DNA of 64,000 bases from Schleiferiaceae bacterium (GCA_018402665.1 JAGYIN010000002.1:124001-188000), one strand, 5' to 3'. Counted from the first letter of the stretch, positions 21,160-33,618 are shown. Notes: generated from the sequence alone by a model not told the origin. Made by a program: numbers and translations.

Positions 21160-21167
21160 CAAAGTTA
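21160..21167 (-). promoter_or_regulatory. -7 promoter box of DUF4271-hemD (TAACTTTG)
   Basis: Minus-strand TAACTTTG matches TAnnTTTG exactly, overlaps the stop codon of the preceding gene and ends seven bases before the DUF4271 ATG. Confidence 0.5.
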
Positions 21168-21992
21168 CTGTAAAACAATGTGCTTGTACTGTATGGTACC
21201 GTCTTTGAATAGGGCGTGAAGGATATAATTACCTCGCGGCAGGCTGCTGATATCGAACTGATCATTACCCGTAGCAGACCAGGACTGGTCCATACTTAAA
21301 AAGCGTCCGATCGTGTTGTATAAGCGGACCTCTTTCAATCCTTCAGCTTTCACAGTGATGTACGCTGTCGCAGGAGAAGGATAGACCTTCAAGGCCGATT
21401 GTATGTGATTTTCAGTCCGTCCCATAACAAGGCCAGGGTAGAGTGTTTTAGACGCAGTAACTACATAATCTCCAGAGGTTGTTCCATTGCTGTTGGTGTA
21501 GTTGACCGCAACATAAATAGTTACTGAATCCCCCATATTTCCTGTATCCCAGTCCCATACCCAACTAATGGCATTGTTCGAAACAGCCGTTGAAGAACTC
21601 TTGTGGGTAACGTAGTTTGAACTCGTGATTTTCGTGTTGGTTGAAGACGGTGTGGATAGCGTACCAATGTGATTGCCGCTTGCATCTTCAATACTCGCTG
21701 AGAAACCAATTTTTGAACTTCCGGCAGCAGCAACATCCAGGTATACACGAGTCTGAATAGAGTCTCTTATCGTATCGCTGTAGTTGCTCATACCCGCATC
21801 AGGCGTAACATTTACTTTAATATCGATCAGTTCATTTCCGTTAGGACTCCCTCCGCCGTGGCAGTAGCCTCCTGAACAAGTTTGTCCGTTGGATGCCGGT
21901 GAGCCGCTCTTGCCGCCTGGTGAGCCGCCAGAATTCGTGTACGAATAGTTAACGATTCCAATGAGTGCGAATAGCAAGGCGAATTTCTTCAT
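21165..21992 (-). CDS. Secreted choice-of-anchor V protein with type IX sorting domain
   Basis: A 275-residue exported protein from the ATG at 21992. A signal peptide (MKKFALLFALIGIVNYSYT) is followed by the choice-of-anchor V opening SGSPASNGQTCSGGYCHGGG. Most members have a CxxCH haem-like motif here; this one reads CSGGYCH, that is Cx4CH. The middle is a Reeler-like beta domain. The last 75 residues (LKVYPSPATAYITVKAEG, then GNYILHALFKDG and KHIVLQ) form a type A C-terminal sorting domain for type IX secretion. The protein is thus probably exported to the cell surface. Function and ligand are unknown. Confidence 0.85.
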   Translation of the reverse strand: MKKFALLFALIGIVNYSYTNSGGSPGGKSGSPASNGQTCSGGYCHGGGSPNGNELIDIKVNVTPDAGMSNYSDTIRDSIQTRVYLDVAAAGSSKIGFSASIEDASGNHIGTLSTPSSTNTKITSSNYVTHKSSSTAVSNNAISWVWDWDTGNMGDSVTIYVAVNYTNSNGTTSGDYVVTASKTLYPGLVMGRTENHIQSALKVYPSPATAYITVKAEGLKEVRLYNTIGRFLSMDQSWSATGNDQFDISSLPRGNYILHALFKDGTIQYKHIVLQ

Positions 21993-22116
21993 AACAGGGT
22001 CCAATTTTCTTTCTGCATTAAAGATGCGAATATCTCTTGATTGTAAACAACAATAATTCGGCCATTGTGTTTTAATTTCAACACCTCTTTTAATTTGAAC
22101 CTTAAATTGAACAGGC

Positions 22117-23289
22117 ATGGATGCATTCCACCACCCGGACTATTACCAATTGGACGATTTACTCTCCGAGGAACATAAAATGGTTCGCGATGCGACAAGA
22201 GATTGGATCAAAAGATCCGTCAGTCCCATCATCGAAGATTACGCGCAGCGCGCCGCTTTTCCAGATCATCTGGTTAAAGAAATGGGTGAAATCGGCTTGT
22301 TTGGTCCTTATATCCCTGAAGAATACGGCGGCGCAGGGTTGGATCACATGAGTTATGGCTTAATGATGCAAGAGGTGGAACGCGGTGATTCCGGAGTTCG
22401 CTCCACGTGTTCCGTTCAAAGTTCACTAGTGATGTTCCCCATCTTCGCTTATGGATCTGAGGAGCAAAAGCGTAAGTTTTTGCCGAAGCTTGCTACGGGT
22501 GAGTTTCTAGGTTCTTTCGGTTTGACAGAACCTAATTTCGGATCGAATCCCGGCGGCATGACCACAAACTTCAAGGAAGATGGTGACGATGTCATCTTGA
22601 ACGGTGCGAAAATGTGGATTTCAAATGCGCCGTTCTGTGATGTCGCGGTAGTTTGGGCGAAAAACGAAGCGGGACGTATTAAAGGGATTATCGTTGAACG
22701 CGGTATGGAAGGTTTTACAACGCCTGAAACGCACAATAAATGGTCGCTTCGCGCGTCAGCGACCGGAGAATTGGTCTTTGATAACGTACGCGTGCCGAAA
22801 TCAAATATTTTACCGGGTCGTGACGGTCTAGGTGCGCCACTTTCCTGTCTAGACAGTGCACGTTTTGGTATTGCTTGGGGTGCCTTAGGAGCTGCTATGG
22901 ATTGTTACGATACTGCGTTGCGTTATTCGAAAGAACGCATCCAGTTTGGTAAGCCGATCGCAGGTTTCCAGCTGCAACAGAAAAAATTGGCTGAGATGAT
23001 TACTGAAATCACGAAAGCACAACTGTTGACCTACAGACTGGGGCAACTTAAGAATGAAGGTAAAGCCACTACTGGACAGATTTCCATGGCAAAAAGAAAT
23101 AATGTTGAGATTGCATTGAATATTGCTCGAGAAGCCCGTCAAATGCTGGGTGGAATGGGAATTACCGGCGATTTCTCCATCATGCGCCACATGATGAACC
23201 TAGAATCTGTTGTAACCTATGAAGGTACTCATGACATTCACTTGCTCATTACGGGATTAGACATCACCGGAGAGAACGCGTTTGTTTAA
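22117..23289 (+). CDS. Acyl-CoA dehydrogenase, glutaryl-CoA dehydrogenase type
   Basis: A 390-residue FAD enzyme. Family motifs are EEYGGAGLDHMSYGLM, GLTEPNFGSNPGGM, KMWISNAPFCDVAVVWAK, the FAD-binding ERIQFGKPIAGFQLQQKKLA and the C-terminal catalytic base in VVTYEGTHDIH. The Tyr-Glu-Gly-Thr-His-Asp-Ile-His form with the Glu at this position and the overall sequence fit glutaryl-CoA dehydrogenase, which decarboxylates glutaryl-CoA to crotonyl-CoA during lysine or tryptophan breakdown. Electrons would pass to the ETF encoded at 36-37.8 kb. It stands alone and ends in a strong terminator. Confidence 0.92.
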   Translation: MDAFHHPDYYQLDDLLSEEHKMVRDATRDWIKRSVSPIIEDYAQRAAFPDHLVKEMGEIGLFGPYIPEEYGGAGLDHMSYGLMMQEVERGDSGVRSTCSVQSSLVMFPIFAYGSEEQKRKFLPKLATGEFLGSFGLTEPNFGSNPGGMTTNFKEDGDDVILNGAKMWISNAPFCDVAVVWAKNEAGRIKGIIVERGMEGFTTPETHNKWSLRASATGELVFDNVRVPKSNILPGRDGLGAPLSCLDSARFGIAWGALGAAMDCYDTALRYSKERIQFGKPIAGFQLQQKKLAEMITEITKAQLLTYRLGQLKNEGKATTGQISMAKRNNVEIALNIAREARQMLGGMGITGDFSIMRHMMNLESVVTYEGTHDIHLLITGLDITGENAFV

Positions 23290-23317: not shown

Positions 23318-23347
23318 AAATCGCTCCAGAAATGGGGCGATTTTTTT
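23318..23347. terminator. Shared terminator between the acyl-CoA dehydrogenase and lipoprotein genes
   Basis: A 10-bp stem (AAATCGCTCC / GGGGCGATTT, one G-T pair) with a six-base loop is followed by seven T on the plus strand and four T on the minus strand. It therefore fits as a terminator for both convergent genes; the lipoprotein stop codon lies in the T-run. Confidence 0.85.
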
Positions 23348-23807
23348 AGTTGGTAATGCGGATGATGTTCCCGCCGTCAAATTGGCAAGAGAACTCTTTG
23401 ACCGGTAGGATGTAGGAAGTATCTATGCTTTGTCCATCCAAGGCTTGGTACTTGTGGTCGTTACATCCGCAGGTAAGATAAAGATCACCCATGCTGCTAC
23501 TCAGTAATCCGCAACCATCATTCCAGTGGTAGGGGCAGGCCAGTTCATAGGCCGCAAAATCGTAGTACTCTTGATCGAAATAGCGACGGTAAATTAAGAT
23601 GCCTCCATGTCCTGCGTTTGGGAGAAGAAGTTGTCCACCCACAACCGTCAAATTAAAACTCGATGGATCGCTCAAATAGACCGTTTCATCCACCAAAGGT
23701 TCCGGAATATCGTACTGTACTGTTGTGGAATTACAGCCGAAAGCGACGAGTGACAGGCTGAAAATTGCAACTAAACGTCTGAAATTCAATAGAATTGTTC
23801 TTTCCAT
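23346..23807 (-). CDS. Rieske-like lipoprotein
   Basis: A 153-residue protein from the ATG at 23807 with a short basic N-terminus, a hydrophobic core and a lipobox ending LVAFGC, so it should be a lipid-anchored envelope protein. The second half resembles Rieske [2Fe-2S] domains, with two Cys/His clusters: ACPYH near residue 93 and TCGCNDHKYQALDG near residue 116, followed by a closing LPVKEF strand. The clusters are CxxH and CxxH (classic Rieske is CxH and CxxH), so cluster binding is not certain. Small Rieske-like lipoproteins are common in Flavobacteriales. The partner is unknown. Confidence 0.65.
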   Translation of the reverse strand: MERTILLNFRRLVAIFSLSLVAFGCNSTTVQYDIPEPLVDETVYLSDPSSFNLTVVGGQLLLPNAGHGGILIYRRYFDQEYYDFAAYELACPYHWNDGCGLLSSSMGDLYLTCGCNDHKYQALDGQSIDTSYILPVKEFSCQFDGGNIIRITN

Positions 23808-23860
23808 AGGTTTACGCAAGATATGCACAAATTGGTTGTGGTTTCTGCCGGTCTACTTCT

Positions 23861-23868
23861 TATATTTA
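23861..23868 (+). promoter_or_regulatory. Probable -7 promoter box of the TonB receptor operon (TATATTTA)
   Basis: TATATTTA is one base from TAnnTTTG, with a TTG about 22 bases upstream. It gives a leader of about 25-30 bases. Confidence 0.4.
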
Positions 23869-23901
23869 CATCCTTATAACCCAAAAGTAATGCCAGTTTT
23901 T

Positions 23902-26900
23902 ATGGTTAAAAGAATACTCACGCTCGTTTTGACACTTAGTGTTGCGTTCAGTTTTGCGCAATCTCGTCCCGGATCAGTTAAGGGAACGGTCAAGGATAAG
24001 CGCACCGGTGAAGTCATTCCGTTCGCTACCGTCATTGTTAAAGACCGCGACGTAGTCGTAACAACCGGTACCACGGATTTTGATGGGAAGTTCAATATCA
24101 ATCCAGTAAACGCTGGGGTGTATAATCTAACTTGTAAGTTTATCGGTTATGCCGACTTCAACTTGAATGGTGTAACAGTGAATGCTGGAAAGCCAAAAGT
24201 AGTTGACTTCGATATGACGGTTGAATCAACGATGATTCAAGAAGTTACGGTCACCGCTCAAGAAGAGCTCATTGAAACGGGTAAAACCTCCGATATCGTT
24301 AGCGCAGAAGAAATTAAAAACCTTCCGTACCGTAACCTCAGTCAAATTGTAGGTACGACGGCAGGTGTCTTCCAACAAGATGGATCTGGTTCATTCAACG
24401 TACGTGGTGCACGTTCTTCAACGAACGTAGTATTTATTGATGGTGTTAAAGTTCGTGGGGATGTGAATATTCCTCGTGATGCGATTCTCTCTACGGAGGT
24501 AATCACTGGTGGACTTCCGGCACAGTACGGTGATGTTACCGGGGGTGTGATTTCAACAACAACTAAGGGCCCTGCTCCGTATTATTTCGGTTCATCTGAA
24601 GTATTGAGCAGTTCCTTATTTGATCAATACCATTATAATTTGGGCGCACTTACTTTAGGTGGACCCATCATTAGAAGTAAATCCGGTCAACCTATAGTAG
24701 GTTTTCTTCTTGCGTCAGAATTCCAGTACAATAAAGACGGTTCGCCCAGATCATTAGCCACCTACAAGGTGAACGATGATAAATTGGCAGAACTTCAAGC
24801 AAACCCATTGACGCCGGCTTCGAGCGGCTTCGGGGTATTAAATTCTGCAGATTTCTTGACCGCTAATGATTTAGTCACGCAGAATTTCCGTGAAAATGTT
24901 GCCAGCACAGCGGTGCGTATGTCGGGTAACTTAAAGTTTGTTACTTCAGAGAAAACGACCCTAACTATTGGGGGGCGTTATAATTTGAACCGCGGTCGTT
25001 CCGGCAGTCGTTTTAATGAGCTTATGAATTACGATAATAATGCAGAATTTTTCCGTCAGGATTGGTCAACTTATGTGCGTTTCCAGCAGCGTTTTGGGAA
25101 TGCTTCAGATTCTTCGAATTCGATCATTCGAAATGCCTTCTACACCATTCAAATGGATTTCACGCGTAACACTGGTTTCAACAGAGATGCGCGTCACAAA
25201 GAAAACTTCTTTAACTATGGGCATATTGGTACGTTCAAAACGACCTACCGACCGCTCTACACATTAGGTACAGATACGATTACAGATCCTAATGATCCTA
25301 ACTATGGTAAGGTGATGAACGCTTATACCCAAGCGGTATGGCAGAGTGTCAACGTAGATTACACTCCATCAGAGAATAATCCAATCCTAGCCAACTACAC
25401 TTCGAACTTCTTCAATTTTGTAGAAACCAACTCCATTTTCAATAATGCGCGTTCACTTGAGGACATCCGTGCAGGTGGCGGATTGCTCAATGGTGATCAA
25501 CCATCGAGTGTATATGGACTTTGGGGAAATGTCGGTGTGAATCAGAGCGGCTATAGTAAGTTTTTGAACGACCAGTTCCGTATTACTACATCTTCTACTT
25601 TCGACATCGGTGATCACGCGCTGATCGTCGGTGTAGAATACGAACAACGTTTTGACCGCTCTTACGGTTTAGGAACGACAGGATTGTGGACGTTAATGCG
25701 CTTGTTGCAAAATGATGCCATTCGAGAATTGGACCTCAATAATCCAGTGGCCTCTTATGATAACAATGGCGTTTTCCAAGACACCCTTTCCTACAACAGA
25801 TTGTTTGATGCAGAAAAGCCTAGAACATTTGACCGTAAGCTACGCGAGGCCTTAGGATACGACCCGAACGGAACGGATTGGCTAGATATTGATAGCTATG
25901 ATCCGTCAACCTTTAGTTTAGATATGTTCTCGGCAAATGAGCTTTTGAACATCGGTTCTGGTGCGTATGTAAGCTACTACGGCTTCGACTATCTAGGGAA
26001 CCAATTAACTACGCGTCCATCGTTGAACGATTTTTATGCGACAGATGCTCAGGGAAATTCAAAGCGTTTGATCGGTGCGTTTGAGCCAATCTACATGGCC
26101 GGATACATTCAGGACCAATTCACTTTTGAAGATCTTTTTTTCAACATCGGTGTGCGTGTAGACCGCTTCGATGCCAACCAGCCAGTACTTGCAGATCCAT
26201 TCGTGTTGTACCCCGCTTATACGGTGGGAGATTTGGCCAGTACGGCGCTCGCAGGTGCTCAAGTGCCTAGCGGGATGAGTGAAAACGCCGTGGTTTACGT
26301 AGACGATCAAGAAAACCCCTCAACTATAGTGGGGTACCGCGACGCATTTACTTGGTATACTGCCAATGGAGATGTCGAAGCGAATCCGAAGAACATTGCT
26401 GATGCCAGCGGTGGTATTAAACCGTTCTTAAAGCAGCCTGGAATTGAAGAGCAAAAGTTATCTGTAACGGCAAACGAAAGCTTCAAAGATTACGCGCCAC
26501 AGGTGACGGTAAGCCCGCGTGTTTCATTCCAGTTCCCTATTTCGGATGAAGCGGAATTTTTCGCGCATTATGACATTCTTGTTCAACGTCCTGATCCAGG
26601 GTTGAACCGTATGAACCCCATTACCTATTTACAGTTAGAGAACGGTGATAATGGAAATATTCTAGCCAATCCAGATCTTAAGCCACAGCGCACGACAGAT
26701 TACGAGATCGGTTTCCGTCAAAAACTGAACGAGAATAGTGCGCTTAAATTAAGTGCGTTCTACCGCGAGATGCGTGATATGATGCAGACCTTAAGTATGA
26801 CTGAGGCTTATCCTATTACATACATCGCTTATGGAAACTTGGATTTTGCAACGACCAAAGGATACACGGTTTCTTACGATCTCCGTAGAACGGGAAATGT

Positions 26901-27549
26901 ACGTATGAATGCCAACTACACCTTACAGTTCGCTGACGGTACAGGTTCGGGCGCGAATTCAGGTGCGAACATTGCGCGTTCAGGACAGCCTAACTTGCGT
27001 TACATCTTACCATTAACTTATGATTCTCGTCACCAGGTAGTCATGAATATTGATTACCGTTACGGCGGTGGAGGGGCATACAACGGCCCAATCCTCTTCG
27101 GAAAGCGTCTTCTTGAGAATGCGGGTGTCAATGTAGTTTTGAATGCAAATTCTGGTACGCCATACACGCGTCGTGGTCTGGCCTTTGGACTTACCGATGC
27201 TGCCACACCGATCACGGGTAACATCAACGGTTCAAGATTGCCCTGGAGTTTCAGAATTGATGCGACTGCGAATAAGGTTTGGAACCTCAAGCAGGAGGCA
27301 ACATTTAGCAACTTCGAGGTCTATGTACAAATTTTAAATGGTTTGAATACACAAAACATCTTGGGGGTTTATTCGTTCACCGGGTCGCCATCGGATGATG
27401 GTTACTTGAGCTCGCCACAAGGACAAAATGCAGTTCAGTTCCAGACCAGCGCGCAGTCTTTTGCAGATTTGTATAACATCAGTTTGGCTAACCCAGGACT
27501 TTACAGTTTACCACGTCGAATCCGTCTAGGATTGCGTCTAGGATTATAA
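23902..27549 (+). CDS. TonB-dependent receptor with carboxypeptidase-like regulatory domain
   Basis: A 1215-residue outer-membrane receptor from the ATG at 23902; an ATG four codons earlier at 23890 is also possible. A signal peptide (VKRILTLVLTLSVAFSFAQ) is followed by a CarboxypepD_reg-like beta domain (SVKGTVKDKRTGEVIPFATV, about residues 25-110). The plug domain covers about 150-270 (GSFNVRGARSSTNVVFIDGV, then YGDVTGGVISTTTKG). A long beta-barrel ends in PRRIRLGLRLGL. It should import a bulky ligand with TonB energy. It is first in a three-gene unit with a large secreted protein and a PorV-family protein, and the substrate cannot be read from sequence. Confidence 0.93.
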   Translation: MVKRILTLVLTLSVAFSFAQSRPGSVKGTVKDKRTGEVIPFATVIVKDRDVVVTTGTTDFDGKFNINPVNAGVYNLTCKFIGYADFNLNGVTVNAGKPKVVDFDMTVESTMIQEVTVTAQEELIETGKTSDIVSAEEIKNLPYRNLSQIVGTTAGVFQQDGSGSFNVRGARSSTNVVFIDGVKVRGDVNIPRDAILSTEVITGGLPAQYGDVTGGVISTTTKGPAPYYFGSSEVLSSSLFDQYHYNLGALTLGGPIIRSKSGQPIVGFLLASEFQYNKDGSPRSLATYKVNDDKLAELQANPLTPASSGFGVLNSADFLTANDLVTQNFRENVASTAVRMSGNLKFVTSEKTTLTIGGRYNLNRGRSGSRFNELMNYDNNAEFFRQDWSTYVRFQQRFGNASDSSNSIIRNAFYTIQMDFTRNTGFNRDARHKENFFNYGHIGTFKTTYRPLYTLGTDTITDPNDPNYGKVMNAYTQAVWQSVNVDYTPSENNPILANYTSNFFNFVETNSIFNNARSLEDIRAGGGLLNGDQPSSVYGLWGNVGVNQSGYSKFLNDQFRITTSSTFDIGDHALIVGVEYEQRFDRSYGLGTTGLWTLMRLLQNDAIRELDLNNPVASYDNNGVFQDTLSYNRLFDAEKPRTFDRKLREALGYDPNGTDWLDIDSYDPSTFSLDMFSANELLNIGSGAYVSYYGFDYLGNQLTTRPSLNDFYATDAQGNSKRLIGAFEPIYMAGYIQDQFTFEDLFFNIGVRVDRFDANQPVLADPFVLYPAYTVGDLASTALAGAQVPSGMSENAVVYVDDQENPSTIVGYRDAFTWYTANGDVEANPKNIADASGGIKPFLKQPGIEEQKLSVTANESFKDYAPQVTVSPRVSFQFPISDEAEFFAHYDILVQRPDPGLNRMNPITYLQLENGDNGNILANPDLKPQRTTDYEIGFRQKLNENSALKLSAFYREMRDMMQTLSMTEAYPITYIAYGNLDFATTKGYTVSYDLRRTGNVRMNANYTLQFADGTGSGANSGANIARSGQPNLRYILPLTYDSRHQVVMNIDYRYGGGGAYNGPILFGKRLLENAGVNVVLNANSGTPYTRRGLAFGLTDAATPITGNINGSRLPWSFRIDATANKVWNLKQEATFSNFEVYVQILNGLNTQNILGVYSFTGSPSDDGYLSSPQGQNAVQFQTSAQSFADLYNISLANPGLYSLPRRIRLGLRLGL

Positions 27550-27573
27550 TAAATAAGCATAGGAAAACAGCAT

Positions 27574-30500
27574 ATGAAAAGAGTGTACCTCCTTTTACTT
27601 TCAACAGCTCTCGCTTTACCACTTTCAGCACGCGAGGTGCAAGGTATGAACAAGACCACTCAAACAACGGGATCATTGAAGACCGTTGAAGAATTGTGTC
27701 AACCTTCAAAAGCGCAAAGTGATTTAAGTATTAATAATGTTCGTACTACCATTCTTGGTGGTGGTGATATGTGGTGGGATTTGAACACCGCGCGTTACGA
27801 AGTACCAAAGGGATCTAACAAGCATTCGATGTTTGCAGGTTCGTTGTGGCTCGGTGGTGTAGATGAGGGTAACCAATTAAAATTGGCTGCCATGACCTAC
27901 CGTCAAGCAGGTAATGATTACTGGCCAGGTCCGCTAACTAGTGATGGTACAGCGTCTACAAACAAAGAAATTTGTGATAAATACGACCGTCATTGGATCA
28001 TTTACCGTGAGGAAGTGGAAATTCACAAGGCGTGGTTGGAATGTTTAGACGATCCCAATTGTGATGAAGCGGAATTATTCCCAGGTTACGAAAGTCAAAT
28101 TCCAGAGTCAATCAAAGATTGGCCAGGAAATGGAGTCGATGGCGAATTGCCCTACCAATTGGCACCATTTATCGATAGCGATGGCGATGGTGTCTACGAT
28201 TACCTTGTAGATTACCCGGCTTACGATATTGATAAGGAGTACGATTGTCGTGATAAAGAGACTGATGTACTCTACGGTGATCAAACCATCTGGTGGGTCT
28301 ATAACGATCGTGGTAACGTACACACAGAATCACAAGCTGGAGCCTTAGGTTTTGAAATTCGCGCACAAGCTTTTGCGTTCTCAACCAACGATGAGGTGAA
28401 CAACATGACGTTCTACAACTACCGCATTATTAACCGCTCTACCTTCCGTTTGACCAATACCTATTTCTCAACTTGGTTTGATCCGGATTTAGGAAACTAC
28501 ACCGATGATATCATAGGTTGTGATATTGCACGTGGTTTAGGTTACTGTTACAATTCAGATTCTGATGATGAAGGTCCACTAGGTTACGGTTTGAACCCGC
28601 CAGCCGTAGGATTTGACTTCTTCCAAGGTCCGTTTGCAGATTACTATGACGGTATAGACAACGACCGCGACGGTTGTGTGGATGGTGTGAAAGATCCGGA
28701 AACAGGATTGTGTGTGGCTGAAGATCCAGCGACCGGTGTGAACGAGCGTATTATCATGAGTCATTTCATGTACTACAACAACACCGCTTCGAACATCTCC
28801 GGTAACCCAGATAACGCGACGCATTTCTACAATTACATGCGTGCGCTTTGGAAAAACGGTTCGGAATTGATTATCGAAACGCCATCAGGTCCCGGTGATC
28901 TGGGCAATGGTGATGGTTTCGTTGCTTCAGGTAGTGGAACTTCAACACAGTTTGCCTACCCAGGGATGTCTTACGACACCACTGGCGCTTACCCTCCATA
29001 TGCACCAGTAAACTGGTGGGAAAGTCCAGCGAATAAAGAAGATAAGCGCGGTTTGCACAGTGCTGGTCCATTCTCATTGGCTCCAGGAGCATTGAACTTT
29101 GTAACTACTGGGGTAGTTTGGGAGCGTGATCTCATTAATAATGATTTGTTCGCTTCTGTAGAGAAGGTAATTATTGCTGATGATAAGGCGCAGAAACTCT
29201 TTGATAACTGCTTTCAAGTATTGAACGGTCCGGATGCACCAGATGTGGAAATTCAAGAATTGGACCGTGAGCTTATTTTGAAGTTAACCTATGGACCGGG
29301 AAGCAACAATGAGGCATTCAGCTATCGTGAGCGCGATCCATTAATTACGGTTAGTCCTGACGATCGCGATTCTATTTTGAATGTAAATCCGGATTATTTC
29401 GACTACAAATTCGAAGGTTTCCAGGTATTCCAATTGGCGAATAGCGACGTAAGTATCTCTGATATTTATGATCCTACGCAAAGTCGTTTAGTGGCTCAAT
29501 GTGATGTTAAAAACGGCATTACCCAGTTAATCAATTGGGAAGTTGATCCAGATTTGAATGCGCTCGTGCCACAAGACATGACGCTTACCACTAATAACAG
29601 CGGTGTATTCACGTCGTTCCAAGTGCGTGAGGATGTTTTCGCAACAGGGGATCGTTCGTTGATCAACCACAAAGAGTACTACTTCACCATTATAGCCTAC
29701 GGTCAAAACCAATACGAAGTATTTAATCCTACTATTGCTCCGGGTGGTCAAAAAATTCCATTCTTAGCGGGTCGTCGTAATATTAAGACCTACACGGCCA
29801 TTCCTCACCAGATAGATTCTGAGAAGGGCGGTACGATTCAGGTTGCGCAGTACGGCGATGGTCCGGAGATTACGCGATTAGATGGTGTAGGTAATGGCGG
29901 CGGAGAGTTAGAGCTCACGTTGACTGAAGTCAAAGACATCATGGATGGTAACGGTACTGGCCAACCCACTTATATGGGCGGTTTAGGACCAGTAGCCATT
30001 AAGGTTGTTGATCCTTTGGAAGTGAAAAATGGCGAATATACGTTGACGCTTGATGGCGCGAATGGCAATGCTCAGTGGGAAATTACGGACGGTAGTGGTG
30101 CAGTTATAGCGACCGCAGATACGACCATTTCTTTCTACAATGAGCAAATTATTCCTGAATTGGGCTTATCCGTTGCAATGCAACAAGCTCCAGCACCGGG
30201 TGGTGATGATGAAGGCACCTATGATAATGGTGTGATTTTCTCTGAAATCATTTACGAAGACCCGTCAAAGGAATGGTGGTCAGGAATTAGTGACGATAAA
30301 AGCTATACTCCATACAACTGGATTCTAGCGGGAACGAACAGTTTCCCAACAGAGGAACCAGCGACCTTGTATCCAGATCAAGACGGAGATGCAAAAGGTT
30401 ATTTTGAAAATATAGTAGATGGAACTTGGGGGCCGTATATGTATGCATCGGCAAACAACCGTTCTACCGTAAATGGGTTCAATAACTACGGTATGGGTCC

Positions 30501-31596
30501 AGCTCAGAGTATCGGGAGAAATTTAAATGATGCTTCCGATCTTCATTCTGTAGATATTGTATTCACTACGGATCCCAGTAAATGGACGCGCGTCCCGGTA
30601 TTTGAAATGGCTGAGGATGATGCGTTGAGTGAGCACGGTGATAAGAAATTGACCCAGCGTCAAGATACTTCCTGGACCCTTGAAAATGGGGTGCTAAAAA
30701 GAGACCCAAGTCTAGAGCCGGGTTGGTCTTACTTCCCTGGATATGCCATTGATATTGAAACGGGCAGGCGCTTGAATATGGCCTTTGGAGAGAACTCGTG
30801 GCTACCCGGTGAAAATGGTAACGATATGCTGTGGAATCCGACGGACAGAGAATTCTTGCCACCAGGAAACACTGTAAATGGCGGATATGTCTTTGGTGGA
30901 CAGCACGTGATTTATGTCTTCGCGGATGAAGATAAGATTGGCGGTTCGAACACTGATCTTGAATACAAAGGAGCGAATATTAACGATTGGCCTTTGAAAG
31001 ACCTGATGGCGGACCTCGTAAAATCTGGAGGTCAAGGAAACATAGCGAAAGCAAACTTCTGGAGAGCTTGTCGTTGGATTGGTATGCCGACATTGAGATT
31101 TGGAATGGATTTCGATCCGTATACGGAGTTGCCAACACAAACGCGCATTCGTATTCGTATGAACGCTGCATACGCGAATAGAGATTTGGCAGACGCTCCA
31201 AACGATGGTAATCCGCAATTCCTATTCAATACCTCGAATATTGCGACGAGAACGTACCAGGATACTATTGGTAAGAGTGCGATGGAGACCATTCGAGTAG
31301 TACCTAACCCGTACTACGGCTTTAGTACCTACGAATCTTCGCAGTTAGACAACATCGTTAAGATTACGAATCTTCCGGAAACGTGTACCATAAGCATCTT
31401 TACGCCAAACGGTACCATGATTCGTCAGATACGTAAGGATAATAGCATGACCTATGTGGAATGGGATATGAAAAACACGTACAGTGTGCCAATTGCATCT
31501 GGTGTTTACATCATTCACGTCGATGCAGGTGAGCTCGGTGAAAAAATTGTGAAATGGTTCGGTGCTTTACGTCCGGTCGATTTGAACTCATTCTAA
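27574..31596 (+). CDS. Very large secreted protein with type IX-like C-terminal domain
   Basis: A 1340-residue exported protein that starts 24 bases after the receptor stop. A signal peptide of about 20 residues (MKRVYLLLLSTALALPLSA) is followed by a Trp/Gly/Asp-rich region with GGGDMWWDL and repeated calcium-loop-like motifs (DSDGDGVYDYLVDYP near 200; DGIDNDRDGCVDG near 360, resembling MopE/thrombospondin-3 loops). The C-terminal 100 residues begin VVPNPYYGF and contain WDMKNTYSVPIASGVYIIHV, a FlgD-like/type IX sorting fold. They end unusually with GEKIVKWFGALRPVDLNSF, extending past the usual terminus. I do not recognise a catalytic domain. It is probably surface-exposed and works with its neighbours. 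Confidence 0.8.
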   Translation: MKRVYLLLLSTALALPLSAREVQGMNKTTQTTGSLKTVEELCQPSKAQSDLSINNVRTTILGGGDMWWDLNTARYEVPKGSNKHSMFAGSLWLGGVDEGNQLKLAAMTYRQAGNDYWPGPLTSDGTASTNKEICDKYDRHWIIYREEVEIHKAWLECLDDPNCDEAELFPGYESQIPESIKDWPGNGVDGELPYQLAPFIDSDGDGVYDYLVDYPAYDIDKEYDCRDKETDVLYGDQTIWWVYNDRGNVHTESQAGALGFEIRAQAFAFSTNDEVNNMTFYNYRIINRSTFRLTNTYFSTWFDPDLGNYTDDIIGCDIARGLGYCYNSDSDDEGPLGYGLNPPAVGFDFFQGPFADYYDGIDNDRDGCVDGVKDPETGLCVAEDPATGVNERIIMSHFMYYNNTASNISGNPDNATHFYNYMRALWKNGSELIIETPSGPGDLGNGDGFVASGSGTSTQFAYPGMSYDTTGAYPPYAPVNWWESPANKEDKRGLHSAGPFSLAPGALNFVTTGVVWERDLINNDLFASVEKVIIADDKAQKLFDNCFQVLNGPDAPDVEIQELDRELILKLTYGPGSNNEAFSYRERDPLITVSPDDRDSILNVNPDYFDYKFEGFQVFQLANSDVSISDIYDPTQSRLVAQCDVKNGITQLINWEVDPDLNALVPQDMTLTTNNSGVFTSFQVREDVFATGDRSLINHKEYYFTIIAYGQNQYEVFNPTIAPGGQKIPFLAGRRNIKTYTAIPHQIDSEKGGTIQVAQYGDGPEITRLDGVGNGGGELELTLTEVKDIMDGNGTGQPTYMGGLGPVAIKVVDPLEVKNGEYTLTLDGANGNAQWEITDGSGAVIATADTTISFYNEQIIPELGLSVAMQQAPAPGGDDEGTYDNGVIFSEIIYEDPSKEWWSGISDDKSYTPYNWILAGTNSFPTEEPATLYPDQDGDAKGYFENIVDGTWGPYMYASANNRSTVNGFNNYGMGPAQSIGRNLNDASDLHSVDIVFTTDPSKWTRVPVFEMAEDDALSEHGDKKLTQRQDTSWTLENGVLKRDPSLEPGWSYFPGYAIDIETGRRLNMAFGENSWLPGENGNDMLWNPTDREFLPPGNTVNGGYVFGGQHVIYVFADEDKIGGSNTDLEYKGANINDWPLKDLMADLVKSGGQGNIAKANFWRACRWIGMPTLRFGMDFDPYTELPTQTRIRIRMNAAYANRDLADAPNDGNPQFLFNTSNIATRTYQDTIGKSAMETIRVVPNPYYGFSTYESSQLDNIVKITNLPETCTISIFTPNGTMIRQIRKDNSMTYVEWDMKNTYSVPIASGVYIIHVDAGELGEKIVKWFGALRPVDLNSF

Positions 31597-31609
31597 GCGA
31601 AAAAGACCT

Positions 31610-32653
31610 ATGAAATTAAAATCTTATATCGCAGCTTTTCTTTCTGTAGCCGTAATGGGTGCAGCAAATGCAGGTAACCCACAACGTGCAGGTTCTGCAG
31701 GTGCGGGAGAACTATTGATTAATCCGTTTGCACGCTCAGCGGGATGGGGTTCAGTGAACGTAGCCGGCGCTACCGGAATGGACGCGACTTTCCTGAATAT
31801 TGCGGGTATTGCAGCTACGGATTTGAACACGCAAGTCACTTTTAACAACACGCAATGGTTGGTTGGCGCAGGCATTAATATGAACGGTGCTACACTCATC
31901 CAGCGCGTAAGTGATGTGGGTGTACTTAGTCTAGGATTGTCCGCTTTTGATTACGGTCAGTGGGAAGTAACCACGGAAGACCAGCCGGAAGGAACGGGAG
32001 CGACTATTAGTCCACAGAGTTTGATCATCAATATGGGGTATGCACAGAAGTTTACTGAGAATATTTACGGAGGGGTGAACGTGAAACTTTACAGCAGTTC
32101 TATTTCTAACTTGAACACCAATGGTGTTTGTTTTGATGCAGGTGTGCAGTACCGTACTGGAGATGAAGACCGATTCAAATTTGGCATTACCTTGAAAAAC
32201 GTTGGGCCAAGTATCACTTACCAGGGGGATGGATTGGGAATTACCTTACCCGTACCTACCTATGGTGTAGCCTATTCTCAAACGTTTGAAAGCCGTTCGG
32301 CAAAGTTTGAATTACCTACGCAGTTGAGTATTGGTGGCTCTTACGATTGGTTCTTAGCCAATGGTAAAGTGACTGGTGCGTTGAACTTTAGCTCAAATTC
32401 CTTTGAGAAAGACACCTACCATGCGGGAGTGCAATACAGCTTAAAAGACTTGTTCCAAGTGCGCGTGGGCTACAAGGCCTTCGATAATCGTGCAGACGAT
32501 CTAGGAACGAGCGCCATCTCAGGAATCTGTGGTGGATTTAGCTTTAATGTACCTACAAGTGATGAAGGTAGCTTTGCTATAGATTATTCGTACCGCGGTA
32601 CGACATCGGCCTTTGGAGGTATTCACTCTATTGGTGTGCGCATTAACTTGTAA
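31610..32653 (+). CDS. PorV/PorQ family outer-membrane protein
   Basis: A 347-residue beta-barrel of the FadL-like PorV/PorQ group. A signal peptide ends near VMGAANA. The mature N-terminus (QRAGSAGAGELLINPFARSA, then GSVNVAGATGMDATFLNIAG) is the hallmark of the family. Alternating beta-strands end in FGGIHSIGVRINL. PorV shuttles type IX substrates from the SprA/Sov translocon to the attachment site, and paralogues like this one are often encoded beside a single large type IX substrate. Here it follows the 1340-residue protein by 13 bases and is followed by a terminator, so I infer that it is dedicated to that protein. Confidence 0.88.
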   Translation: MKLKSYIAAFLSVAVMGAANAGNPQRAGSAGAGELLINPFARSAGWGSVNVAGATGMDATFLNIAGIAATDLNTQVTFNNTQWLVGAGINMNGATLIQRVSDVGVLSLGLSAFDYGQWEVTTEDQPEGTGATISPQSLIINMGYAQKFTENIYGGVNVKLYSSSISNLNTNGVCFDAGVQYRTGDEDRFKFGITLKNVGPSITYQGDGLGITLPVPTYGVAYSQTFESRSAKFELPTQLSIGGSYDWFLANGKVTGALNFSSNSFEKDTYHAGVQYSLKDLFQVRVGYKAFDNRADDLGTSAISGICGGFSFNVPTSDEGSFAIDYSYRGTTSAFGGIHSIGVRINL

Positions 32654-32665
32654 TAGATAAAATAC

Positions 32666-32673
32666 TAACTTTG
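32666..32673 (+). promoter_or_regulatory. -7 promoter box of greA (TAACTTTG)
   Basis: TAACTTTG matches TAnnTTTG. The predicted start (about 32680) lies just before the terminator hairpin at 32684, so greA mRNA would begin with that hairpin. Confidence 0.5.
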
Positions 32674-32683
32674 TACCTACAGG

Positions 32684-32708
32684 AGAGGCCATTATGGCCT
32701 CTTTTTTA
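32684..32708 (+). terminator. Terminator hairpin between the porV-like gene and greA
   Basis: A 7-bp stem (AGAGGCC / GGCCTCT) with loop ATTAT is followed by a run of T. It ends the TonB-receptor operon but also lies downstream of the greA promoter box. Confidence 0.8.
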
Positions 32709-32723
32709 GTAATACCATTGACT

Positions 32724-33200
32724 ATGTCATCAGTAAGTTATTACACCGCTGAAGGGCTTAAAAAGCTCAAGGCGGAATTGGAACACATGAAGAATGTAGA
32801 GCGCCCTAGAATCTCGCAGCAGATTGGAGAAGCGAGAGATAAGGGAGATCTTAGTGAAAACGCAGAATACGATGCGGCCAAAGAGGCGCAGGGCATGCTT
32901 GAGATGAAAATCTCAAAACTTGAGGATACGCTCGCCGGTGCTCGGGTTTTGGATACGGCAAATATTGACCTTTCCAAGGTTGGTGTGTTGACAAAGGTGA
33001 AGTTGAAAAATGTCACGAACGGTGCCACTATGGTTTACAGTTTAGTCGCAGAGAAAGAAGCCGATATTAAGCAAAGCAAAATTTCTGTATCTAGTCCTAT
33101 AGGAAAAGGCTTATTAGGTAAGAAGGTCGGGGAGATTGCGGAAATTCAAGTCCCACGCGGGGTAATGAGTTTTGAGATCTTAGAGATCACCTCGGCGTAA
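32724..33200 (+). CDS. greA: Transcription elongation factor GreA
   Basis: A 158-residue cleavage factor that rescues backtracked RNA polymerase. The ATG at 32724 gives the standard GreA start (SYYTAEGLKKLKAELEHM) and length; an in-frame ATG at 32694 lies in a terminator loop and is unlikely. The coiled coil tip with the conserved acidic pair is in DKGDLSENAEYDAAKEAQG, and the C-terminal FKBP-like domain ends with EIQVPRGVMSFEIL. Its promoter and leader are unusual because a terminator hairpin lies between them. The HIT gene follows 13 bases later. Confidence 0.97.
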   Translation: MSSVSYYTAEGLKKLKAELEHMKNVERPRISQQIGEARDKGDLSENAEYDAAKEAQGMLEMKISKLEDTLAGARVLDTANIDLSKVGVLTKVKLKNVTNGATMVYSLVAEKEADIKQSKISVSSPIGKGLLGKKVGEIAEIQVPRGVMSFEILEITSA

Positions 33201-33213
33201 AAAAGTTCGAGCG

Positions 33214-33618
33214 ATGGGAAGTATTTTCACAAAGATCATCAACGGTGAGATTCCTTGTTACAAAGTAGGGGAGGATGCTTCTAATATTGCTTTTCTAGAC
33301 ATTCGTCCTTTAAAACGTGGTCACGTCTTGTGTGTACCTAAGCGCGAGGTGGATGAATTGTACGAATTACCTGCTGAAGACTATACGAGTCTCATGCTCT
33401 TTTCGCAGCGTATTGCACGTGCTATTAAAGCAGCTGTGCCTTGTAAACGCATAGGCTCAATGGTCTTAGGCATGGAGGTGCCTCATGCGCATTTGCATTT
33501 AGTTCCTTTGGATGCTGAGCATGAATTGAGTTTTTCGAATACTCCGTTGCAGTTGAGTGCAGCGGAGATGGAATCTATTCGTGCTTCTATTTCAAACGCT
33601 CTGGATGCTGTTGGATAA
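33214..33618 (+). CDS. HIT family nucleotide-binding hydrolase
   Basis: A 134-residue protein with the histidine triad in VPHAHLHLVPL (residues about 89-99) and the typical opening SIFTKIINGEIPCYKV. HIT proteins hydrolyse or transfer nucleotidyl groups, for example from adenosine 5'-phosphoramidates or dinucleoside polyphosphates. It probably shares greA mRNA. Its last 32 bases overlap the end of ruvC on the other strand. The exact substrate cannot be told. Confidence 0.92.
   Translation: MGSIFTKIINGEIPCYKVGEDASNIAFLDIRPLKRGHVLCVPKREVDELYELPAEDYTSLMLFSQRIARAIKAAVPCKRIGSMVLGMEVPHAHLHLVPLDAEHELSFSNTPLQLSAAEMESIRASISNALDAVG

Follow-up and report, generated by a model that had tools for sequence, protein, structure and literature searches.

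In the type IX secretion system (T9SS), the C-terminal domains (CTDs) of exported proteins are collected from the outer membrane channel SprA by PorV (PMC10994853). The CTDs of PorZ and PorU are reported to escape cleavage and to be bound by PorQ and PorV, respectively (PMC5562754, PMC10202324); PorQ anchors PorZ (PMC5562754), and both the PorU:PorV and the PorZ:PorQ sub-complexes have retained CTDs (PMC5562754, PMC10202324). For type B cargo, barrels of the PorP/SprF type serve as private carriers and anchors (PMC9143113, PMC12618676), and in the published view such private barrels serve type B cargo only, while all type A cargo travels via the single shuttle PorV (PMC12618676). Here we analyzed a 64,000-nucleotide stretch of DNA from a Schleiferiaceae bacterium (the window, whose positions serve as coordinates below) that encodes, side by side, a TonB-dependent receptor (TBDR), a secreted protein of 1340 amino acids, for short BIG, and a barrel of the PorV family. 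With somewhat more confidence than doubt, we read this triad as one outer membrane surface unit in which barrel-anchored BIG captures ligand for uptake through the TBDR. We further propose, at slightly less than even confidence, that it belongs to a third, unrecognized T9SS carrier class spread throughout the phylum, in which PorU/PorZ-like CTDs are matched with private PorV-family barrels; the triad would be the most conserved use of this class, a TonB uptake machine with a barrel-tethered T9SS subunit instead of a SusD lipoprotein. Each part is of a known kind; their combination and the rule joining CTD and barrel appear to be new. In the open-access literature, to which our search was confined (subscription papers and preprints were outside its scope), neither the triad nor any PorV-family private partner other than PorV and PorQ was described, and PorV2 was likewise absent.

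The three open reading frames (ORFs) lie on the plus strand where the original prediction had placed them, with the TBDR at 23890..27549, BIG at 27574..31596, and the barrel at 31610..32653. The gaps between them are 24 and 13 bases, and signal peptides are readable at the N termini of all three products. In the ORF listing the TBDR opens at a GTG at 23725, but judging from its signal peptide it starts at ATG 23890 or 23902. The prediction had also treated the genes as one unit with a single terminator, and this is supported by a strong intrinsic hairpin followed by a T run at ~32681-32707 on the plus strand (-17.7 kcal/mol, z -4.2), as well as by the preservation of gene order and strand in other genomes described below. 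A simple terminator scan missed the hairpin, probably because the T run was taken up into G-U pairs. The proposed promoter was only partly borne out: the box TATATTTAC is indeed present at 23861..23869 (plus strand) and resembles the Bacteroidota -7 motif, TAnnTTTG, but this is a resemblance to a consensus only. The receptor itself carries a signal peptide, a CarboxypepD_reg domain, a TonB-box-like EVTVTA, a plug, and a barrel. Its anticipated regulatory and plug domains were both matched in Pfam (CarboxypepD_reg, 7.9e-18; Plug, 1.1e-10), and its assignment outside the SusCD systems also held, as the receptor had no match to SusC/RagA (TIGR04056, NCBIfam) at an E value of 1 and neither adjoining gene matched the SusD family in Pfam or NCBIfam.

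Homologs of BIG were found in 176 of 395 genomes of the phylum. This is an upper estimate of the true carriers, because the weakest matches (E near 1e-6) may link the CTD to other cargo proteins. Within the genus all 25 genomes carry BIG, some as fragments, as do all 12 further members of the family that were searched, giving 48 of 60 relatives in all; the carriers' lineages include the cultured Schleiferia thermophila and Thermaurantimonas aggregans. SprA was present in each of the 176 BIG-positive genomes, and none of the 92 SprA-negative genomes had BIG (Fisher p 4.5e-29, without correction for phylogeny). Among SprA-positive genomes, BIG occurs in 8/92 within the class Bacteroidia and in 168/211 in other classes, and some families, f3 among them, lack it although they retain the T9SS.

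The order TBDR-BIG-barrel on one strand was conserved in at least 112 of the 122 BIG genes whose flanks could both be read, with median gaps of 23 and 19 bases. Three of the 10 exceptions are BIG genes split by an in-frame stop or a frame change. In Phaeocystidibacter luteus (L138:7938-12017) a single in-frame TAG near residue 1180 splits BIG and the rest of the triad is intact. We then read gene order around 241 BIG-family genes of at least 450 codons, 19 of which were cut by contig ends. A barrel adjoined 174 of the 222 testable genes and was missing from 48, and a TBDR was visible upstream in 166 of the 174 barrel-linked cases. Starting instead from 20 barrels with no BIG match recorded beside them, we found BIG directly upstream in 17; of the other three, two came after a receptor but no BIG, and the third was truncated by the end of its contig. 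At the level of genomes, 163 had both BIG and barrel, 13 BIG alone, 10 the barrel alone, and 209 neither. Linkage of the triad is thus far beyond chance, and homologs of the large protein mostly occur with the other two genes, as the original prediction had anticipated. The constant presence of the TBDR upstream suggests that anchored BIG serves this receptor, most simply as its capture subunit.

The CTD of BIG (residues 1230-1340; 31261..31596, plus strand) shows the pattern PNPYYG...NLP...WDM...ASGVYIIHV...GEKIVKW with the tail RPVDLNSF. Together with the Sec signal peptide readable in the N terminus, MKRVYLLLLSTALALPLSA, this Ig-like CTD gives BIG the general features of T9SS cargo. The last 100 residues matched the end of the NCBIfam PorZ profile (2.5e-7), and Por_Secre_tail stayed below its cutoff. 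Over the full PorZ profile (NF052228) BIG reached 29.5 bits, through the CTD only and against a cutoff of 260, so that it is not a full-length PorZ. It scored 20.9 bits against the type A CTD (TIGR04183), under the cutoff of 23, did not match PF18962, and had no match to the type B CTD (TIGR04131/PF13585, CHU_C) at an E value of 1. The nearest solved structures, as aligned with VIA-align, were those of PorZ (5m11; Z 10.7, 2.5 Å over 91 residues, 25% identity) and PorU (6za2; Z 9.1, 2.8 Å over 86 residues), and the CTD is accordingly classed as PorZ/PorU-like. These CTD matches, and the confinement of BIG to SprA-positive genomes, agree with the T9SS export that had been predicted for the large protein.

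This type of CTD follows linkage to the barrel. In barrel-linked BIGs the CTD is longer (at least 92 residues from PNP to the end, median 97), contains PNPY in 167 of 174 proteins, and has an extra segment after PNPY as well as a tail past the conserved lysine. A hidden Markov model trained on half of the triads gave at least 105.9 bits for the held-out half, while stand-alone BIGs scored either at least 101.7 bits (18 proteins) or at most 26.4 bits (28 proteins), with nothing in between. The distinct CTD was thus carried by all 174 barrel-linked BIGs but by only 18 of 46 stand-alone ones (p 1.3e-23), and the 28 low-scoring paralogs mostly have ordinary type A ends. The genomes of the 18 also hold a triad-type barrel. 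For L177 and three of the four Crocinitomix-type loci this barrel was seen by direct reading; for the remaining stand-alone BIGs the same-genome barrel mostly belongs to a triad, the rest being barrel matches in the triad score range. Several kinds of stand-alone paralogs were seen. Short ones of about 560 residues occur in the same family (L107:6488-8179, L108:6411-8081, L109:3654-5357) and consist of the N-domain and a weak or degenerate type A end; the L107 copy lies between TrhO-like and HgmA-like genes. In other classes (L227, L245, L218) there are tandem arrays with as many as four BIG-like genes, most of which have ordinary type A ends.

The third gene encodes a 347-residue protein with a signal peptide that belongs to the PorV/PorQ family (NF033709; 150.8 bits, cutoff 90), as had been predicted, without being PorV (NF033710; 69.3 bits, cutoff 250) or PorQ (NF033711; 74.8 bits, cutoff 220); the putative PorV2 profile of NCBIfam (NF052325) gave 20.7 bits against a cutoff of 325. 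In a tree, the 161 triad barrels grouped in a single clan with a support of 0.962, separate from 16 sequences of PorV, PorQ, and further family members. The genome from which the window comes (1.95 Mb, 89% complete), which among named relatives is closest to Schleiferiaceae/Cryomorphaceae metagenome-assembled genomes, also has SprA, PorZ, a canonical PorV (446 bits; L002), and a canonical PorQ that adjoins lon- and cmk-like genes (217.8 bits against a cutoff of 220), and a fourth PorV-family gene is found on contig 22. Since PorV and PorQ are encoded elsewhere, the barrel of the window is an additional member and not the general shuttle.

To determine how far such pairing extends, six genomes were searched with the CTD profile and, separately, for the PorV family, and pairing was judged from the coordinates. 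A PorV-family gene lay directly downstream of 29 of 33 genes with a BIG-type CTD (at least 40 bits) and of none of the 75 top-listed ordinary type A genes of these genomes (p 2e-22). When weaker matches are counted, one genome has up to 11 CTD-barrel pairs. In three genomes the CTD profile also caught, with a low score, the gene directly before the highest-scoring PorV, which is the place of PorU. The triad is therefore the best-conserved case of a broader CTD-barrel pairing. The private partnership that had been proposed between barrel and large protein gains support because CTD class follows barrel linkage and because of this 29/33 versus 0/75 contrast; the distinct clan of the barrels fits with it. 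Receptor-barrel pairing recurs with other partners as well, since in L316:5784-10733 and L319:2278-7248 a PorV-family barrel follows another receptor, with about 1.3 kb between them and no BIG there. Contig 22 of the window's own genome (L286, 4933-15580, minus strand) holds a second pair of a TBDR (935 residues) and a PorV-family protein (325 residues), in a cluster with a 706-residue protein with a PorZ-like CTD, a 733-residue type A cargo, a 462-residue protein, and a 394-residue lipoprotein-like protein; the part comprising TBDR, barrel, and a 390-residue protein recurs in the relative L310.

BIG had no match in Pfam, and apart from the PorZ CTD no solved structure was related to it by sequence. 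We therefore turned to AlphaFold2 models of residues 21-748 and 640-1340 (pLDDT, the predicted local distance difference test score, 84.5 and 85.7). In the first, residues ~42-549 (27697..29220, plus strand) are predicted to form a beta supersandwich that aligns with 9ju0 (VIA-align Z 19.4, 252 residues, 3.1 Å; Foldseek E 6.9e-5) and resembles the N-terminal supersandwich of GH65, GH94, GH15, and GH116 enzymes. No (alpha/alpha)6 catalytic barrel was seen in the models, the 640-1340 model being nearly all beta and searched as a whole. Within this region, the most conserved stretch of BIG in an alignment of 26 sequences is the Asp-rich segment WFDPDLGNYTDDIIGCD...GYCYNSDSD (residues 301-332; 28474..28569, plus strand), with the invariant columns D303, D305, G307, D311, D312, G315, D317, N327, and D332. 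It may be a metal site. Two DxDGDG-like loops lie close to it in sequence, namely the moderately conserved calcium-loop-like motif DSDGDGVYDY (residues 201-210; 28174..28203) and a second such motif, GIDNDRDGCVDG (residues 360-371; 28651..28686), both on the plus strand. From the strand pattern of the model, a putative Fn3/Ig-like domain with the conserved FEGY.VFQ...YYF.V.AY follows at residues ~557-720 (29242..29733, plus strand).

The neighborhood of the triad is partly conserved. On the minus strand at 23346-23828, divergent from the triad, lies a small ORF whose lipoprotein-like product has Rieske-like C/H pairs and no match in Pfam or NCBIfam; its relatives occupy the same place in 58 triads of 5 lineages. 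Downstream, at 32694-33618, greA and a HIT-like gene follow, as they do after some 90 triads from 8 lineages. The start listed for greA, 32694, falls within the terminator, so that ATG 32727 is the likelier start. Also nearby, but unrelated, is a choice-of-anchor V protein (21165-22118, minus strand) whose T9SS tail is of the ordinary type A kind. In 26 triads of 9 lineages a GWxTD-domain gene directly follows the barrel (e.g., L098:3215-4573 and L314:11042-12433); it is TIGR04514 in L098, with similar ORFs of 450 to 460 residues elsewhere, and it is probably a fourth member of the triad in other classes.

We propose the following model. BIG would cross the inner membrane via Sec and the outer membrane via the T9SS channel SprA, and its CTD, being of the PorU/PorZ kind, would escape removal by the sortase. 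By analogy, the PorV-family barrel encoded next to it would collect this CTD and keep it, so that, like PorQ with PorZ, it would both carry and permanently anchor the protein. Once anchored, BIG, whose regions include the supersandwich, the Fn3-like domain, and the metal loops, would lie beside or over the TBDR and capture a ligand, possibly a glycan, which would be taken up through the receptor in a TonB-driven manner. In this respect BIG would be a functional analog of SusD, tethered by a T9SS CTD and a barrel instead of a lipid.

Several observations weigh against this model. Nothing ties BIG physically to the TBDR, and contact between the two, the ligand, and its import are presumed. No substrate genes recurred beside the triad when neighborhoods were compared. 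The supersandwich fold alone is no proof of glycan binding, and a glycan ligand is conceivable from the modeled fold, no more. Covariation between BIG CTD and barrel (173 pairs, Neff ~116) was hardly higher than after shuffling within clades, and the best-scoring pairs (barrel N38-F40 and I64) look like lineage-signature positions. Co-occurrence of BIG with SprA is partly phylogenetic. Finally, Crocinitomix-type and other genomes carry an extra BIG with the distinct CTD and no adjacent barrel or receptor, so that a single barrel may have several cargos, like Fjoh_1677 (PMC12618676). In the Crocinitomix-type copies (L180:7965-12776, L183:7977-12814, L184:8001-12812), which have the barrel-type CTD, a small downstream ORF (OMP_b-brl_2 in L180 and L184) replaces the PorV-family gene.

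BIG and its barrel might instead form an anchored adhesin or structural protein, with the cotranscribed TBDR working separately on a small siderophore- or cofactor-like ligand. Receptor-less stand-alone BIG paralogs are indeed common, some of them in tandem arrays, and type B cargo/SprF pairs without a receptor are adhesins (PMC12618676). We nevertheless consider this unlikely, as a TBDR precedes barrel-linked BIGs almost throughout the phylum (166/174) and the short median gaps argue for coexpression. The resemblance of CTD and barrel to the attachment complex raises another explanation, that the triad is envelope biogenesis machinery whose TBDR draws on TonB energy for the transport or maturation of BIG or some other surface molecule, like PorU, PorV, PorQ, and PorZ with their lipopolysaccharide-linked cargo. 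Its housekeeping-like breadth outside Bacteroidia (168/211) and the downstream GWxTD gene would fit. On the other hand, most T9SS-keeping families of Bacteroidia have lost the triad, and the 8/92 remaining there indicate that the T9SS as such can function without it; the domains of the TBDR are, moreover, of the ordinary import type, and we regard this explanation as improbable. Since PorV-family proteins are FadL-like barrels (PMC12578637) and the BIG CTD is related to type A, the barrel could also be a channel for hydrophobic compounds, with BIG carried by PorV and cleaved by PorU as type A cargo and the genes merely traveling together. The two sharply separated CTD classes track the barrel, though, no ordinary type A gene among the 75 adjoined one, and a canonical PorV is already present in the genome, which makes this explanation very improbable.

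Overall, the genomic pattern points to a further CTD class, close to PorU and PorZ themselves, with PorV-family barrels of its own across the phylum; one such pair is linked to a TBDR in very many species. This goes beyond the original prediction in that the triad is phylum-wide and the best-conserved case of a general pairing, and in that BIG has a predicted glycosidase-type supersandwich domain. If correct, it would explain many unexplained PorV/PorQ-family genes, allow cargo-barrel pairs to be predicted, and point to TonB-dependent uptake by a route other than SusCD, in lineages including those of the two cultured species named above.

Compared with known systems, the triad shares with PorZ-PorQ and PorU-PorV a T9SS-exported protein and a PorV-family barrel, and the BIG CTD is structurally nearest to those of PorZ and PorU and would likewise be held uncleaved at the surface. 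BIG differs from these proteins in having a predicted supersandwich and Fn3-like domain rather than propellers or a protease, and the triad in having a barrel of a separate clan and a receptor in the operon, with PorZ, PorQ, and PorV encoded elsewhere in the genome. Like SprB-SprF and PG1035-PorP, it has a private barrel gene beside the cargo, with a presumed carrier and anchor role (PMC9143113, PMC12618676), but its CTD is not type B, its barrel is of the PorV family, and there is no PorE. With GH65, GH94, and GH116 enzymes BIG shares the predicted N-terminal supersandwich, with no (alpha/alpha)6 catalytic barrel seen in its models. Finally, as in SusC-SusD uptake systems, a receptor and a large surface partner are encoded alongside each other; unlike in these systems, there is no SusD, the receptor lies outside SusC/RagA, and the partner is of the T9SS type instead of a lipoprotein.

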